Shown here piece by piece: positions 41,008-64,000 of a DNA stretch of 64,000 nt. The notes beneath the pieces are model-generated. The model was not told where the DNA came from. It searched no databases and saw only the letters and a list, made by a program, of their open reading frames with translations. How positions within the stretch are numbered: position 1 is the first letter of the stretch; every line of letters begins with the position of its first letter. The DNA lies in assembly GCA_009786075.1 (NCBI GenBank), contig WQTX01000004.1:1-64000 (forward strand), given 5' to 3'. This DNA is from Bacteroidota bacterium (GTDB lineage Bacteria > Bacteroidota > Bacteroidia > Bacteroidales > UBA1715). Position numbers and translations under genes: made by a program.

Positions 41008-42018
41008 TTATAAACTTTCCATTTGTATAAGCAATTTATCGAAATCCGATTGATAGTTTTTGTCTTGAATAACGCGATATTTTTCAAATTCACTTTCGGC
41101 AAATGCTTTTGCAATTTCGTGAGTAACCGTGCCTACGCCATCGGAAAGTTGCGCATCGTTGAAATTAAGGAAAGCATCGAGTTTGTTTTTCCAATCTTCC
41201 ATTGTCATGGGAATAAACCGGCGAGCTTGACGGTTGGCATAATCCAAATACATGGTTACAATTTCGTTCAACTCCGAAATTTCTAAGTGCGACAAGTAAT
41301 TTTTTGCAATGCTTACATCGGTTTTGATAATTTTCCCTGCCGGTGCATTTTTCCAACTCGTAAGCCCCATATTTTCTTTTTTGGCATCGGCTCGCTGCAT
41401 AATCAATTCGGCAGCAGTGTGTTGGTGTATGGCAAAATGTAATTTATTTTGCACGTTGGCAAAAAAGTTTTTGGTGGTTGGGCTGCTTGTGTCGTAATCT
41501 ACTGCGGTGGCGTAAATATCGGTTATTTTCTGATAAAATTTCCGTTCACTTGCGCGAATTTCCTGTATTTCGGCAATAAGTTCGTCGAAATACTGCTTTG
41601 AAAAAACTTGGTCGTTAATCAGCCGGTTTTTGTCTAACACATAACCTTTTTTTGCAAATTGGCTCAAAACTCCGGTTGCCCATTGGCGAAATTGAATTGC
41701 CCGCTCGCTGTCGGTGCGATAACCCACGGCAATAATTGCCTCTAAACAGTAAAATTTTACGTTGTAATTTTTACCATCGGCGGCAGTTTGTCGGAAATTC
41801 CGACAAACTGAATTTTCACTCAATTCGCCGTCTGCAAAAATATTTTTTAAATGTTCCACAATCGTTGGACGGCTTTTTTGAAACAATTCAGCAATAGCCT
41901 CGCTTTGCAGCCACACATTTTGGTCTTCTATGCGCACGGCAATTCCGCCTTCGTCGTTTTGCCGAGTAAAAATCAAAAAATCGGCAGTTGAATTGCGTAT
42001 TTGTAGTTGTTTGTTCAT
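41008..42018 (-). CDS. RhuM family protein
   Basis: VWLQSEAIAELFQKSRPTIVEHLKNIFADGEL...YCLEAIIAVGYRTDSERAIQFRQWATGVLSQFAKKGYVLDKNRL. Confidence 0.93.
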   Translation of the reverse strand: MNKQLQIRNSTADFLIFTRQNDEGGIAVRIEDQNVWLQSEAIAELFQKSRPTIVEHLKNIFADGELSENSVCRNFRQTAADGKNYNVKFYCLEAIIAVGYRTDSERAIQFRQWATGVLSQFAKKGYVLDKNRLINDQVFSKQYFDELIAEIQEIRASERKFYQKITDIYATAVDYDTSSPTTKNFFANVQNKLHFAIHQHTAAELIMQRADAKKENMGLTSWKNAPAGKIIKTDVSIAKNYLSHLEISELNEIVTMYLDYANRQARRFIPMTMEDWKNKLDAFLNFNDAQLSDGVGTVTHEIAKAFAESEFEKYRVIQDKNYQSDFDKLLIQMESL

Positions 42019-42212
42019 TAGTTTTGTTTTATTGTGATATGCTGGTTTTCGGTTACTGAGCTTGTCGAAGTATGGTTACTGAGCCTGTCGAAGTATCGAA
42101 GTACAAAAATACAAAAAAATTGCAATAATTTTTTCTCTTTGGTTTATTCCGACTTTGCAATTGGAATAAAAAAATGTACTTTTGCAGAAATGAAAAAACC
42201 AAAACCGGAAAA

Positions 42213-43055
42213 ATGCAAAGCAAAAACGAGATAATTTTATATCAACCCAATGAGGCGGTAGAAGTTGAGGTTTTGTTGGAAAATGAAACTGTTTGGTTAT
42301 CATTAAATCAAATAGTAATACTTTTTAATAGAGATAAGTCTGTGATTTCGAGACACATAAAAAATGTTTTTAAAGAAGGGGAGTTACTGCAAAATTCAGT
42401 TGTTGCAAATTTTGCAACAACTGCCTCTGATGGAAAAACGTATTATGTGGATTATTACAACCTTGATGTTATAATTTCAGTAGGTTATAGAGTAAAATCG
42501 CAACGCGGTACGCAATTTCGTATTTGGGCAAATCGAATTTTAAAAGATTACTTATTAAAGGGCTATGTTGTAAATCAACGAATAGACAGATTGGAGCGAA
42601 AAATAGAGGAACACGACCAAAAATTTGATTTATTGATAAAAACACCTCATCAACCCAAAGAAGGAATTTTTTGCGAAGGGCAAATTTTCGATGCCTACGT
42701 TCTTGCCGCCGATTTGATAAAATCAGCAAAAAAATCTGTTGTTTTGATAGATAATTATGTGGACGAAACTGTGTTGTTGCTTTTAGCAAAACGCAAAACA
42801 AATGTAAAAGCAGAAATTTATACACGACACATTTCTGCTCATTTACAATTAGATATAACACGGCACAATGCCCAATACGAGGCAATACAAATTCAAGAAA
42901 AACCAAATTTTCACGACCGTTTTTTAATAATCGACAACACGGTGTACCACATAGGCGCATCATTCAAAGATTTAGGAAAAAAATTGTTTGCTTTTGCAAA
43001 AATGGAAGTAAAAGCACGGCAATTGCTGAAAATGTTGGAAGATAAATATGAATAA
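42213..43055 (+). CDS. RhuM-like N-terminal domain fused to PLD-like C-terminal domain
   Basis: VWLSLNQIVILFNRDKSVISRHIKNVFKEGEL...DVIISVGYRVKSQRGTQFRIWANRILKDYLLKGYVVN; C-term VVLIDNYVDETVLLLLA...FHDRFLIIDNTVYHIGASFKDLGKK. Confidence 0.85.
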   Translation: MQSKNEIILYQPNEAVEVEVLLENETVWLSLNQIVILFNRDKSVISRHIKNVFKEGELLQNSVVANFATTASDGKTYYVDYYNLDVIISVGYRVKSQRGTQFRIWANRILKDYLLKGYVVNQRIDRLERKIEEHDQKFDLLIKTPHQPKEGIFCEGQIFDAYVLAADLIKSAKKSVVLIDNYVDETVLLLLAKRKTNVKAEIYTRHISAHLQLDITRHNAQYEAIQIQEKPNFHDRFLIIDNTVYHIGASFKDLGKKLFAFAKMEVKARQLLKMLEDKYE

Positions 43056-43172
43056 TTAAAACAATAACGAAACAGAAATTTAAAAATATAACATTTTGAT
43101 TTGAACTCATAGTTCTTATTTCTCAAAAAGACGAAATCTACCAATTTTCAGACAAGCGAGAATAAGTTGCGG

Positions 43173-43194
43173 AGTTCACGTCTTCGGGCGTGAA
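43173..43194. repeat. cUUCGg-capped hairpin gttcacgtc-ttcg-ggcgtgaac
   Basis: 9-bp stem (one wobble) with UUCG tetraloop. Confidence 0.85.
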
Positions 43195-43278
43195 CTGTTT
43201 GTACTTGTTTGCTTGTAATGGTTTTGGTAGAGCCTGTCTTTTAAAATAAGTATTTAATGAACAGTTTACGCTTTTTTT

Positions 43279-43527
43279 ATGCAGGAAAACCACAACATAC
43301 ACATTGGCAAAATAATTTTGCAAACATTGAAAGAAAAAGAACGTTCTGTATCTTGGCTTGCGCGAAAAATAAATTGCGATAATGGCAATTTGGGGCGACA
43401 GTTGCGAACAAAATACTCTATGCAAGCCGATTTGATTTTAGAAATATCTTTTGCTCTGGAAACAAACTTTTTTGATTATTACTTTTCCGTTTTTAACAAA
43501 AACTCTGTAAAAATTACAGAAAAATAG
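43279..43527 (+). CDS. Small HTH (XRE-like) protein
   Basis: IILQTLKEKERSVSWLARKINCDNGNLGRQLRTKYSMQADLILEISFALETNFFDYY. Confidence 0.6.
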   Translation: MQENHNIHIGKIILQTLKEKERSVSWLARKINCDNGNLGRQLRTKYSMQADLILEISFALETNFFDYYFSVFNKNSVKITEK

Positions 43528-44470: not shown

Positions 44471-44635
44471 ATGCCAACTTGTCGTTGTGGAAATTACACC
44501 AGAGTAGAAGGATTTGCATGTGATGATTGCAAGAGAAGAAATATTGAGGAGGGTGGCGGTTTCAAAGGATGTCTAAAGTTCGTTGGAATAGCACTTATAA
44601 TAATATTTATAGTATATTTGATAGCATCATGTTAA
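44471..44635 (+). CDS. 54-aa zinc-ribbon-like plus TM mini-protein
   Basis: MPTCRCGNYTRVEGFACDDCKRRNIEEGGGFKGCLKFVGIALIIIFIVYLIASC*; absent from ORF track. Confidence 0.6.
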   Translation: MPTCRCGNYTRVEGFACDDCKRRNIEEGGGFKGCLKFVGIALIIIFIVYLIASC

Positions 44636-44637
44636 TG

Positions 44638-44699
44638 GAGACCAGAGACCATTTCAAAAACGGGGCGAGTTTGAAAAGCCAGATGAGTAGAAAAAACTA
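44638..44699 (+). repeat. About 60-bp direct repeat, copy 1
   Basis: ccagagaccatttcaaaaacggggcgagtttgaaaagccagatgagtag, matches 44875-44935. Confidence 0.9.
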
Positions 44700-44852: not shown

Positions 44853-44874
44853 CCACACAAATCTAAAATATGAT

Positions 44875-44935
44875 GGAGCCAGAGACCATTTCAAAAACGG
44901 GGTGAGTTTGAAAAGTCAGATGAGTAGAGGAAACT
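44875..44935 (+). repeat. About 60-bp direct repeat, copy 2
   Basis: ccagagaccatttcaaaaacggggtgagtttgaaaagtcagatgagtag. Confidence 0.9.
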
Positions 44936-44964
44936 TTTTAAAAATAAAAAAATATCAAATTCCG

Positions 44965-45228
44965 ATGAGTACAAAAATAGTTTATCAAGAATACAGCAAT
45001 ACCCCTATTTACCGAGTAGAAGGCAATAAAATTTATCAAGGCTACAGTGGTGCGCTTGCCTACCGAATAGACGGCAATATGATTTATCAAGAATATAGCA
45101 ACACGCCTGTTTACCGAATTGATGGTAATATGATTTATCAAGGGTATGAAAATACGCCTATTTACCGAATAGAGGGAAATAGAATTTATCAAGGGCATAG
45201 TGGTGCGCTTGTTTATAGAATAGATTGA
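44965..45228 (+). CDS. Tandem beta-repeat mini-protein (IYQ-x-Y...YRIDGN repeats)
   Basis: MSTKIVYQEYSNTPIYRVEGNKIYQGYSGALAYRIDGNMIYQEYSNTPVYRIDGNMIYQGYENTPIYRIEGNRIYQGHSGALVYRID; start revised from 44737. Confidence 0.75.
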   Translation: MSTKIVYQEYSNTPIYRVEGNKIYQGYSGALAYRIDGNMIYQEYSNTPVYRIDGNMIYQGYENTPIYRIEGNRIYQGHSGALVYRID

Positions 45229-45245
45229 ATACCATGTTCGGCTAT

Positions 45246-47717: not shown

Positions 47718-47743
47718 TACCGATTTCAAAAAATAAAAATAGT

Positions 47744-47751
47744 ATATTTGC
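47744..47751 (+). promoter_or_regulatory. Putative -7 box TATATTTG upstream of structured RNA copy A
   Basis: TATATTTG about 50 nt 5' of the conserved element; copy B has TACATTTG at an equivalent place. Confidence 0.45.
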
Positions 47752-47798: not shown

Positions 47799-47996
47799 AA
47801 TACGCACATTTTAGACTTTTGGAAAAAGCATTTTAGGTTATCTTTCTAGTAAAAAATTTGACGATTTAAAGCAAAGAAAGAGTTTAAGTTGGAGTGTTCG
47901 CGCCGGTCGGCGTGGACTTTTGATTTATTCTGTTCTTTGCGGGTTACGTCAAATACCTTTACTAGCGGGATACTGAAAAGTACCACGCTTTTTTTT
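47799..47996 (+). ncRNA. Structured RNA element, copy A
   Basis: Long similarity to 58606-58802 (-); stem gttcgcgcc/ggcgtggac; terminator gcgggatact-gaaa-agtaccacgc-U8. Confidence 0.8.
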
Positions 47997-48090
47997 GTGT
48001 GTATGCGAACAAAATAGTTCTTTTTGGTACATTTTTTTTAACAAATTTTTAATTTAAAAGTTGCGCCCGTCACGTATTAGGGATTTTATA

Positions 48091-48660
48091 ATGAAAAATT
48101 TTTCAACTTTTTTGACAATTAGTTTGCTCACAACAGCAACAGCATTTTCCCAAGTTGCACCATCAGCACAGGGTGGTAATCCAATAGGAAAAATTATTTT
48201 ATTGGCAATAATAATTATTTTCATCTTGCGTTATTTTTTAGTGGTTCGTCCTAAGAAGAAAAAAGCACAAGAATTACGAGAACAAGCAAAAGGTAATGAG
48301 GCAACAGAAAAGGAAAAGCCACAAAATAATAACATAAAAATTGGTGGTTGGATACTTACTTCTTTAGGTGGAGTAGGTTTAATAGGAACAATGGTTACAA
48401 AAAATAGTGCGAACTATCAATTAGATAGTATTGGTGAGCTTTTCGGAGTAGGTCAAGGTTATAAATCAACAGTAGATACGCTATTTTATCTTGCTATAGT
48501 AGCATTAATTATTGGCATTATCATGCTTATTGTTGGCTATTCTAAAAAGATGGTTGAGAAGATTATAGTTTGCCCTAATTGTCAAAGTCAGAATTTGGAA
48601 AATGCCCAATTTTGTAAAAATTGTGGTACAAAATTGAGGCAAAATATCATGGAGCAATAG
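48091..48660 (+). CDS. Membrane protein with C-terminal zinc ribbon
   Basis: Signal/TM start MKNFSTFLTISLLTTATAFS; C-terminal CPNCQSQNLENAQFCKNCGTKL; start revised from 48061. Confidence 0.75.
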   Translation: MKNFSTFLTISLLTTATAFSQVAPSAQGGNPIGKIILLAIIIIFILRYFLVVRPKKKKAQELREQAKGNEATEKEKPQNNNIKIGGWILTSLGGVGLIGTMVTKNSANYQLDSIGELFGVGQGYKSTVDTLFYLAIVALIIGIIMLIVGYSKKMVEKIIVCPNCQSQNLENAQFCKNCGTKLRQNIMEQ

Positions 48661-57017: not shown

Positions 57018-58496
57018 TTATTCTGCAAGCACACAACGCACTGAGTAGCCGTAACTGCGACCGCTTCTGCCCTCGACCGCGTTACCCTCTGGGAAGTACA
57101 CGTCGTATGCGAGCGTCTCATCGTGGGGCGTACTGCTCCAATAAGCACCGAACACGCCTGTGGCGCGCAACTCTCCGGTATTGAAGAGGCGGTAGCCTGC
57201 TGCAGGAATGAAAAGAGAATTCCTACCACTGCCAAATTCCCTACCGGGTACACCATTTTTTGTTGTCCATGTATAAGTAGTACTTACAAGTGATTGCAAT
57301 TCAGTTCGTGTAGGCACTCGCCAGCCGGCAGGGCATGGGTCGTTTGCTTTTTCCCAAGTAGTGCCACTTGATGTTGAGCTATCCCAACCACTTACATATC
57401 CTGTAGCTGCCCACGCTTTACGACAATTCCATTGATAGAATTTACCGGCACTTTCTGGTGAAGCGGCAAAAGTACCGGGTGTATCTACATTACAAGGCGC
57501 CCATTTTACACCGTTAATTACTACTGGAGTATTAGGGTCAACATACGATGAAATAGTAGAATTTGAATTTTGACTAAAAGATGTTCCGTTTACAAAAATT
57601 TCATTACCTCTGATTTCTATTGATGAGTTTGCGGGTATTTCGTATTCGGTACTTACTCCGTTTATATTTATTACTGTTTTTCCATTAAAAGTAGTAATGG
57701 AATACGCTGTATTAGAATTACAATAACATCCGTTTATTATGTTAATAGTACCTCCATTTTGCTGCCATTGATTTCCAACTTTTTCTATAGAATTAGCATA
57801 CAATCTTCTCTCTTCTCCCGAAAGTTCTTTTCTTTCGTAACGAGTTAAAAATGGCACTTCTTCAAGTTTTCCTGTTACTGATTTATATCTTTGCGGTTCG
57901 TCACCTATTGCCCACATCGAAGTTGTTTCTATGAAATAATACTTTTTGCCATTACGATTGTAATAAGTGCCGTTACAATCATTACACGCAAATCCCACAG
58001 CTATATGTTCCGGTAAATTAATTAAAACAGCATCAAATCCAAACGTTTTCAATAAAGCTACCAATAAGAAAGCTTTATCTTCGCAATCACCGCCATTTTC
58101 CACCAGTGTCTCAATTGGGTGTTTGCAATAGTCTCCTCCACCATAGGCACTCATATCAGGGTCTGTTTTGTAAGGAGTTGATTGCTGAACAAAAGCGGTT
58201 AAATATTCCGCTAATTTATGTCCGGTATAGCCTGACACATTAGCATACTTATCTATATCTTCTGCTAATTTTTGTAAATAACGATGCCCTGTATGGTCTT
58301 CTACATATTCAGTATAGGGGTTATTCTTTTTTAAGCGACGGTAGTATTCATAATCACTTTGCTTGAAAGTGAATGTTTGTGTAAATAAATTGCCGTCATA
58401 AGTCCATTTGAAAGTACGTTCAATCTTTTCTTGTGCTGACAAGGTCAAAGAAAGAGAAACTCCCAGAAAAAATAAAAAAATATACTTTGCTTTCAT
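57018..58496 (-). CDS. Secreted transglutaminase-like protein with FISUMP-type C-terminal domain
   Basis: ETLVENGGDCEDKAFLLVALLKTFGFDAVLI; C-term WAPCNVDTPGTFAASPE..., DPCPAGWRVPTRTELQSL, YWSSTPHDE, GYSVRCVL. Confidence 0.9.
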   Translation of the reverse strand: MKAKYIFLFFLGVSLSLTLSAQEKIERTFKWTYDGNLFTQTFTFKQSDYEYYRRLKKNNPYTEYVEDHTGHRYLQKLAEDIDKYANVSGYTGHKLAEYLTAFVQQSTPYKTDPDMSAYGGGDYCKHPIETLVENGGDCEDKAFLLVALLKTFGFDAVLINLPEHIAVGFACNDCNGTYYNRNGKKYYFIETTSMWAIGDEPQRYKSVTGKLEEVPFLTRYERKELSGEERRLYANSIEKVGNQWQQNGGTINIINGCYCNSNTAYSITTFNGKTVININGVSTEYEIPANSSIEIRGNEIFVNGTSFSQNSNSTISSYVDPNTPVVINGVKWAPCNVDTPGTFAASPESAGKFYQWNCRKAWAATGYVSGWDSSTSSGTTWEKANDPCPAGWRVPTRTELQSLVSTTYTWTTKNGVPGREFGSGRNSLFIPAAGYRLFNTGELRATGVFGAYWSSTPHDETLAYDVYFPEGNAVEGRSGRSYGYSVRCVLAE

Positions 58497-58605: not shown

Positions 58606-58802
58606 AAAAAAAAGCGTGGTACTTTAATAGTATCCCGCTTTCAGAAGGTAATTTGGCGTAACCCGAGTAGAACAGAATAAGTAAAAAGCCCACGCCAAAA
58701 AACGTGAGCACTCTAACTTAAACTTTCTCTACTTTAAAATTGCCAAATTTTTTCCGAAAGAAAGAAAAACCTAAAATGCTTTTTCCAGTAAAATGTGCGT
58801 AT
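58606..58802 (-). ncRNA. Structured RNA element, copy B
   Basis: Reverse complement aligns to copy A: aatacgcacatttta, tggaaaaagcattttaggt, ttattctgttct, cgggttacgccaaat, agcgggatact...agtaccacgctttttttt. Confidence 0.8.
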
Positions 58803-58885
58803 TAATTACGCTTTTATTATCATAGGCAAATGTTTTTATAATTACACAAATGTATTAATTTTTAGAATATGTAAGCAATGTGTTT

Positions 58886-63679: not shown

Positions 63680-63749
63680 CAAAATAATTAGTAATTACCT
63701 AACTACCAATTAAAACCAAGTGCCAACAAGCACTTTATGATACATAAAT

Positions 63750-63926
63750 AAGAAGACATTTACTTCATTTCTTGCTCTCCAAAAATTTGCCAGATTTAAT
63801 AGAGAAAGAAGAACAAGTAAGCAATAAGTTAATATTCACGTAATGCGTGAGCTTGACTTATTCTATTTGTTCGGGTTAGGCAAATACCATGGAGAGCGGA
63901 AACAGTTAAGTTTCACGCTTTTTTTT
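63750..63926 (+). ncRNA. Structured RNA element, copy C (divergent)
   Basis: aaaaatttgcca, ttcacg-taatg-cgtgag stem, cttattct, cgggttaggcaaatacc, gcggaaacagttaagtttcacgctttttttt. Confidence 0.7.
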
Positions 63927-63983: not shown

Positions 63984-64000
63984 ATGAAGAGAATTAGATT
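63984..64000 (+). CDS. Start of a truncated CDS (MKRIR...)
   Basis: ATG near the window edge downstream of RNA copy C; runs off the window. Confidence 0.4.

Follow-up and report, generated by a model that had tools for sequence, protein, structure and literature searches.

Little is understood of how Bacteroidota control their genes at the level of RNA, and yet the surface proteins and SusC-type transporters of this phylum shape gut, soil and marine ecology. The stretch of DNA analysed here (64,000 nt of a Bacteroidales genome, in the following called the window) carries several copies of a structured RNA. A preliminary description had listed three of them, A, B and C, each ending shortly before an ORF for an exported or membrane protein. 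This raises the question whether the copies are regulatory leaders of the genes behind them or sRNA genes scattered along the chromosome. Our analysis favours leaders: with a probability of roughly 0.76, to judge from sequence and predicted structure, the RNA represents a new family of leader RNAs in Bacteroidota, which act in cis and control their downstream gene through transcription attenuation.

Copy A, consisting of the leader RNA core and the terminator, is located at 47819..47994 on the plus strand with the U-tract reaching to ~47996. It is matched by two covariance models, R1 built from 11 copies of the source genome (E=1e-26) and R2 built mostly from Flavobacteriia sequences (E=7e-28). 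A Bacteroidota -7 box (TAnnTTTG, here TATATTTG), a motif enriched upstream across the copies, is found at 47743..47750 (+). The gene behind copy A (MKNFSTFLTISLLTTATAFSQ..., 48091..48660, +) encodes a signal peptide/membrane protein with a C-terminal zinc ribbon (Pfam Zn_Ribbon_1). Copy B lies on the minus strand at 58608..58788 (R1 E=4.5e-25, R2 E=4.6e-28) with the promoter box TACATTTG at 58847..58854 (-), and is followed by a gene for a secreted protein with a Fib_succ_major domain according to Pfam (MKAKYIFLFFLGVSLSLTLSAQ..., 57018..58496, -). Copy C (63746..63924, +; R1 E=1.5e-15, R2 E=3.4e-19) precedes a gene start at 63984..64000 (+). This gene runs past the end of the window, and the contig sequence beyond gives the protein N-terminus MKRIRFLPSIALLWCAMLNVQAQ with a clear signal peptide. 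The copies end 96 nt before 48091 (A), 111 nt before 58496 on the minus strand (B) and 59 nt before 63984 (C). The positions described previously were correct to within one base according to the covariance-model matches, and the likeness of A and B past the U-tract turned out to be genuine in a sequence comparison. Compared to dinucleotide shuffles the folds reach z = -4.6 (A), -5.3 (B) and -6.0 (C), with 0 of 200 shuffles being as good.

A fourth copy at 43096..43277 (+; R1 E=9.5e-6, R2 E=9.5e-11) was missing from the preliminary list, its divergence being too great for detection by eye. It belongs to an HTH-linked subtype with a long three-strand switch. The ATG of an 82-aa HTH-like protein (43279..43527, +), a member of a family recurring behind the RNA, is located 1 nt past this copy. 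On its other side, 41008-42018 and 42174-43055 resemble RhuM/virulence-protein-like accessory genes (named by reading alone), and many other copies border accessory genes as well, e.g. PIN-, KilA-N- or GmrSD-like ones. A short ORF with tandem protein repeats (YRIDGNMIYQGYSNTPI-like) is present at 44938-45230.

Many further copies came to light when the source genome (3.18 Mb, 176 contigs) was searched with blastn. The covariance models detect ~46 copies there with R1 (E < 0.05) and 53 with R2 (best E = 1.5e-29). R2 moreover detects 21, 15 and 31 copies in three other Bacteroidales genomes and 1-7 copies in four genomes of other families. The RNA is present in 11 of 38 genomes of a class sample (R2) and in 21 of 296 genomes of a phylum sample of low sensitivity (R1). 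A pattern scan of named genomes yielded at least 80 loci; all 80 listed are Bacteroidota records, each with an R1 match. Flavobacterium, Mucilaginibacter, Pedobacter, Chryseobacterium, Zunongwangia and Tannerella are among the genera of the loci listed, next to Paludibacteraceae and others.

The family fold is secure. In an alignment of 73 sequences, two-sided changes occur at 53 of the 54 pairs, and 90% of the cells are paired vs 34-45% if the structure is slid along the alignment; no shuffle attains the observed values. The same covariation picture is obtained with a largely different set of 81 sequences. Fitting both alignments to the model favours the structure somewhat, yet the values of the slid and the shuffled controls are far from the observed ones. 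The 3' strand of P2 is flanked by a near-invariant GGU and ACC, candidates for ligand or protein recognition. A covarying stem GGU...ACC was dropped, since the two motifs vary too little to be counted as covariation and are placed inconsistently in a MAFFT alignment. Two other pairings were discarded as well. The closing helix GAAAAAGC/GCUUUUUU of the minimum-energy folds may be artificial, the U-tract having been included in the folding. The 5' element UACGCAC can pair with GUGCGUA behind the U-tract, which is visible in A and B, but shows no cognate preference in the source genome (cognate -7.07 vs non-cognate -6.99, P = 0.9), and in Flavobacterium-type copies it beats nothing but shuffles. 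Two copies, L316 (C1:52735) and L091 (C79:5612), have no terminator end and no gene close behind. Both share another sequence in its place (AAGCGCAAG.ATTTAGATAA...AAGATAGAAAGA) and are possibly decayed or fused with another repeat.

Strand 2 forms the 3' side of the central hairpin. Its sequence complements that of strand 1 and also that of strand 3, the segment preceding the U-tract. In copy A (all +), strand 1 (47883..47904) is the 5' strand of the antiterminator, its partner in the predicted fold being strand 2. According to the three-strand analysis, strand 2 (47909..47926) is shared as partner of either 1 or 3, and strand 3 (47976..47988) is the 3' strand of the terminator, abutting the U-tract. 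The mean energy of the 2:3 duplex is -21.3 kcal/mol for cognate strands vs -16.3 for non-cognate ones and -9.6 for a shuffled strand 3, the cognate pairing being better than the non-cognate one in 144 of 153 copies. The 1:2 duplex has a mean of -18.0 kcal/mol. In Flavobacterium-type copies 2:3 is an 18-bp stem with the U-tract directly after it, and no other obvious terminator is seen in those copies. Moreover, the segment before P1 pairs with the segment before strand 1. This helix X is stronger between cognate than between non-cognate partners (P = 5e-9 and 3e-9) and by its geometry would be incompatible with the nested helices P1-P3. In a structure-blind alignment of 65 distinct Flavobacterium-type sequences the pairs of X and 2:3 are 94-97% formed, and the OFF structure shows 12 two-sided changed pairs vs 4.8 in shuffles. 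If strand 1 is blocked in the F. johnsoniae copy L198, the predicted fold consists of X, a GGUA...UACC hairpin and the full terminator stem in front of UUUUU. The median predicted energy difference (OFF minus ON) is 2.9 kcal/mol in a Flavobacterium-rich set vs 8.8 in a set dominated by the source genome. In the source-genome subtypes strand 3 can also be used by a competing, shorter local terminator hairpin (AGCGG...CCACGCU), and hence the exact terminator is less certain and the three-strand switch less clear there. Taken together, terminator and antiterminator pairings are both conserved, covarying and mutually exclusive, more weakly so in the source-genome subtypes.

The RNA has a strict orientation relative to the following gene. 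In 158 of 163 loci the closest gene downstream runs in the same direction as the RNA (45/47 in the source genome, 23/23, 26/26 and 64/67 in three further sets). Upstream neighbours on the same strand amount to 28/45, 14/25, 3/27 and 11/63 in the four sets and are thus random or mostly opposite. Random neighbours or an opposite orientation to the flanking genes, named in the preliminary description as evidence against a leader, are not what these counts show. Of 95 copies from the phylum sample and the named genomes, 82 (4.7 expected) have the promoter motif TAnnTTTG 15-60 nt before the core, with a peak at 24-25 nt. In the source genome, 25 of 48 copies carry it 15-100 nt before the core (2.3 expected). 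Between U-tract and start codon it is found in 1 of 68 gaps (7.7 expected), and in none of 32 gaps of the source genome (0.9 expected). Some source-genome copies without promoter box directly follow an upstream gene on the same strand. With promoter boxes before the RNA and nearly none in the gaps, polymerase seems to reach the downstream gene only when it reads through the terminator.

When scored by a simple script, 33 of the 46 next same-strand ORFs in the source genome begin with a signal peptide or a lipoprotein signal, and 9 are HTH-like. Signal-peptide enrichment, proposed earlier as a check, is pronounced: 33 of 37 non-HTH downstream ORFs vs 36% of 247 background ORFs (P = 6e-10). The four unscored ones have, by eye, signal-like N-termini on the ORF itself or on the following ORF. 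Six extra copies found with R2 precede one HTH gene, three genes for secreted proteins and one for a membrane protein, while one is without a gene. In Flavobacterium the downstream gene usually encodes a SusC/RagA TonB-linked outer-membrane protein and starts 180-400 nt downstream. Among the other targets are genes for redoxins, an ECF sigma factor, GmrSD, HsdM, an MCP and a T9SS-sorted protein.

The assumption that an exported or membrane protein gene follows every copy thus holds for A, B and C but fails family-wide, since the fourth copy and others (~10 of 53) precede HTH-like genes. Similarly, cell-envelope genes are confirmed as the main class of targets, but the claim needs widening because the RNA also precedes genes for HTH-like regulators and, in other members of the phylum, restriction genes and further accessory genes. 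The HTH-like proteins are ~75 aa long with the consensus MQENxxIHIGKxI...SVxWLAxQLxCDRSN, and the source genome encodes ~12 paralogues of the ORF at 43279-43527. Searches of Pfam and NCBIfam gave no match at threshold for this family. By coordinate comparison, clear HTH-family genes are located directly behind the RNA in 10 of 13 cases in the source genome, 8 of 11 in a second (G001) and 9 of 11 in a third genome (G005). In the source genome their ATG lies 0-3 nt past the U-tract, so close that another promoter would not fit in between.

Based on this analysis we propose the following mechanism. RNA polymerase would start at the TAnnTTTG promoter just upstream, or arrive from an upstream gene, and make the ~200-nt leader first. 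In the antiterminated fold, the nested helices P1-P3 would hold the central hairpin formed by strands 1 and 2. In the terminated fold, strand 2 would switch to strand 3 next to the U-tract while the 5' half rearranges to form helix X. The leader would hence be bistable, P1-P3 together with 1:2 meaning read-through and X together with 2:3 meaning termination. A signal favouring P1-P3 and 1:2 would let polymerase enter the gene, usually one for a secreted protein, a lipoprotein, a SusC/RagA receptor or an HTH-like regulator. We infer that the terminator functions, that read-through is regulated, and in which direction control is exerted. The targets form no coherent metabolic pathway indicating a ligand, and their diversity would favour a general signal or a protein factor as trigger rather than a pathway metabolite. 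It is conceivable, though we would rather bet against it, that the RNA constitutes a phylum-wide class of switches by which one signal sets dozens of surface and secreted genes together, with the HTH-like proteins acting in the same circuit. In addition, the terminated leader could act in trans as an sRNA.

No match over the RNA was obtained with Rfam 15 at gathering score for the window, 19 loci of its own genome and 19 loci of the phylum. With permissive settings, Rfam gave nothing beyond noise over the RNA in copy A, in the fourth copy or at four Flavobacteriia loci. Known Rfam families (T-box, 6S, Flavo-1, Bacteroidales-1 and known riboswitches) were rejected accordingly, none of their covariance models matching over it. 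The open-access literature yielded no equivalent leader RNA before SusC or secreted genes in Bacteroidota, which is weak evidence of absence. Given neither a match in Rfam 15 nor a description in that literature, we rate the RNA as a new family within a known kind, the terminator/antiterminator leader RNAs, in which it stands out by how many copies there are, by the genes it precedes and by its occurrence across the phylum. Like attenuators and riboswitch expression platforms it combines a 5' leader position, an upstream promoter, three-strand exclusive helices and a U-tract terminator. The location in the 5' leader on the gene's own strand (at the 158 co-directional loci of 163) is what is expected of an attenuator. 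A conserved core with near-invariant GGU...ACC is present as well and might serve as the aptamer of a riboswitch. In contrast to those systems no known aptamer or leader peptide was recognised in this RNA, the targets are mainly secreted or surface proteins and the HTH-like family, and there are ~50 copies in one genome. A leader-peptide attenuator was discarded: short ATG-stop ORFs exist in some source-genome copies, but inspection revealed none conserved in Flavobacterium leaders. In the window copies, mini-ORFs that precede the core (e.g. MVTE*, MIIKA*) are conserved neither in position nor outside this genus.

Two other RNA classes of the phylum invite comparison. Flavo-1 (RF01705) is likewise a widespread multicopy structured RNA, found in Flavobacteriaceae, and has no fixed orientation to transcripts (PMC9723704). 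Its 76-nt model matches L198:5825-5902, whereas the leader RNA is located at 2715-2867 of the same locus. The DUF805 RNA (RF03081) is a Bacteroidota cis-regulatory RNA class present in the same window, but is a 68-nt element that does not overlap the leader RNA. Its two Rfam matches, at 44630-44697 and 44868-44934 (+), both encode a conserved stretch (METRDHFKNGASLKSQMSR-like). At L060 and L320 the DUF805 element is located between the leader RNA and a lipoprotein-type gene, fused to the N-terminus of the ORF. The DUF805 RNA may be partly coding, or both elements may act in tandem.

An alternative reading is that of a trans-acting sRNA family, duplicated beside surface genes, whose independent terminated transcripts act on other mRNAs. 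Many copies do have their own promoter box and an intrinsic terminator, and multicopy sRNA families exist in Bacteroides (PMC11697453). FopS/GibS of Bacteroides thetaiotaomicron resemble the present family in being multicopy Bacteroidota RNAs linked to SusC-type genes. FopS sRNAs, however, are ~65-70 nt long, act in trans and are intergenic, antisense or located in 3' UTRs (PMC11697453), whereas the RNA described here is ~200 nt long, co-directional with and upstream of its neighbour gene. Membership in FopS was rejected on these grounds, a leader of fixed orientation differing from orientation-independent sRNAs. Moreover, an sRNA gene requires neither near-perfect co-direction nor gaps nearly free of promoters, neither an HTH start codon abutting the U-tract nor covarying, mutually exclusive helices, and some source-genome copies sit directly behind a same-strand gene with no promoter box seen. 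We thus consider this reading improbable. The earlier suggestion of a regulatory leader in cis rather than scattered sRNA genes is instead supported by five lines of evidence: co-direction downstream with random or mostly opposite neighbours upstream, signal-peptide enrichment in non-HTH downstream ORFs, promoter boxes before the RNA and near-absent from the terminator-gene gap, the position of the HTH start codons, and the exclusive terminator and antiterminator helices.

The strong structure and the terminator, together with upstream genes that are often unrelated, would also suit a constitutive insulator, stabiliser or pausing element that sets the mRNA level or shields the gene from read-through independently of any signal. 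We regard this as quite unlikely, as a plain terminator requires no conserved antiterminator strand, helix X or near-invariant GGU...ACC flanks, and an insulator would not lie just downstream of the gene's sole promoter-like box. Least probable of all, and hardly to be expected, is a mobile repeat (MITE-like or retron-like) inserted before accessory genes by chance. It would account for the high copy number, the adjoining accessory genes (HTH, GmrSD, HsdM) and a likeness among subfamily members that reaches into the flanks. Yet flanks are unrelated between different subfamilies, the structure is kept with extensive compensatory change in spite of very divergent sequences, the orientation to the next gene is strict, and a transposase or reverse transcriptase was not noticed consistently beside the copies.

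A leader RNA that stands before surface genes in ~50 copies in one genome and is conserved phylum-wide would constitute a global control point after transcription initiation. As genetic tools exist for Flavobacterium, where the RNA precedes SusC/RagA genes, the idea is directly testable there. Finally, four loci (L031, L033, L034, L037) share ~200 nt of common non-coding sequence (CGACGACGGGAAAACCGCCACAATATATAAGACAG...) between the RNA and genes for small secreted proteins, which is a further repeated leader segment.
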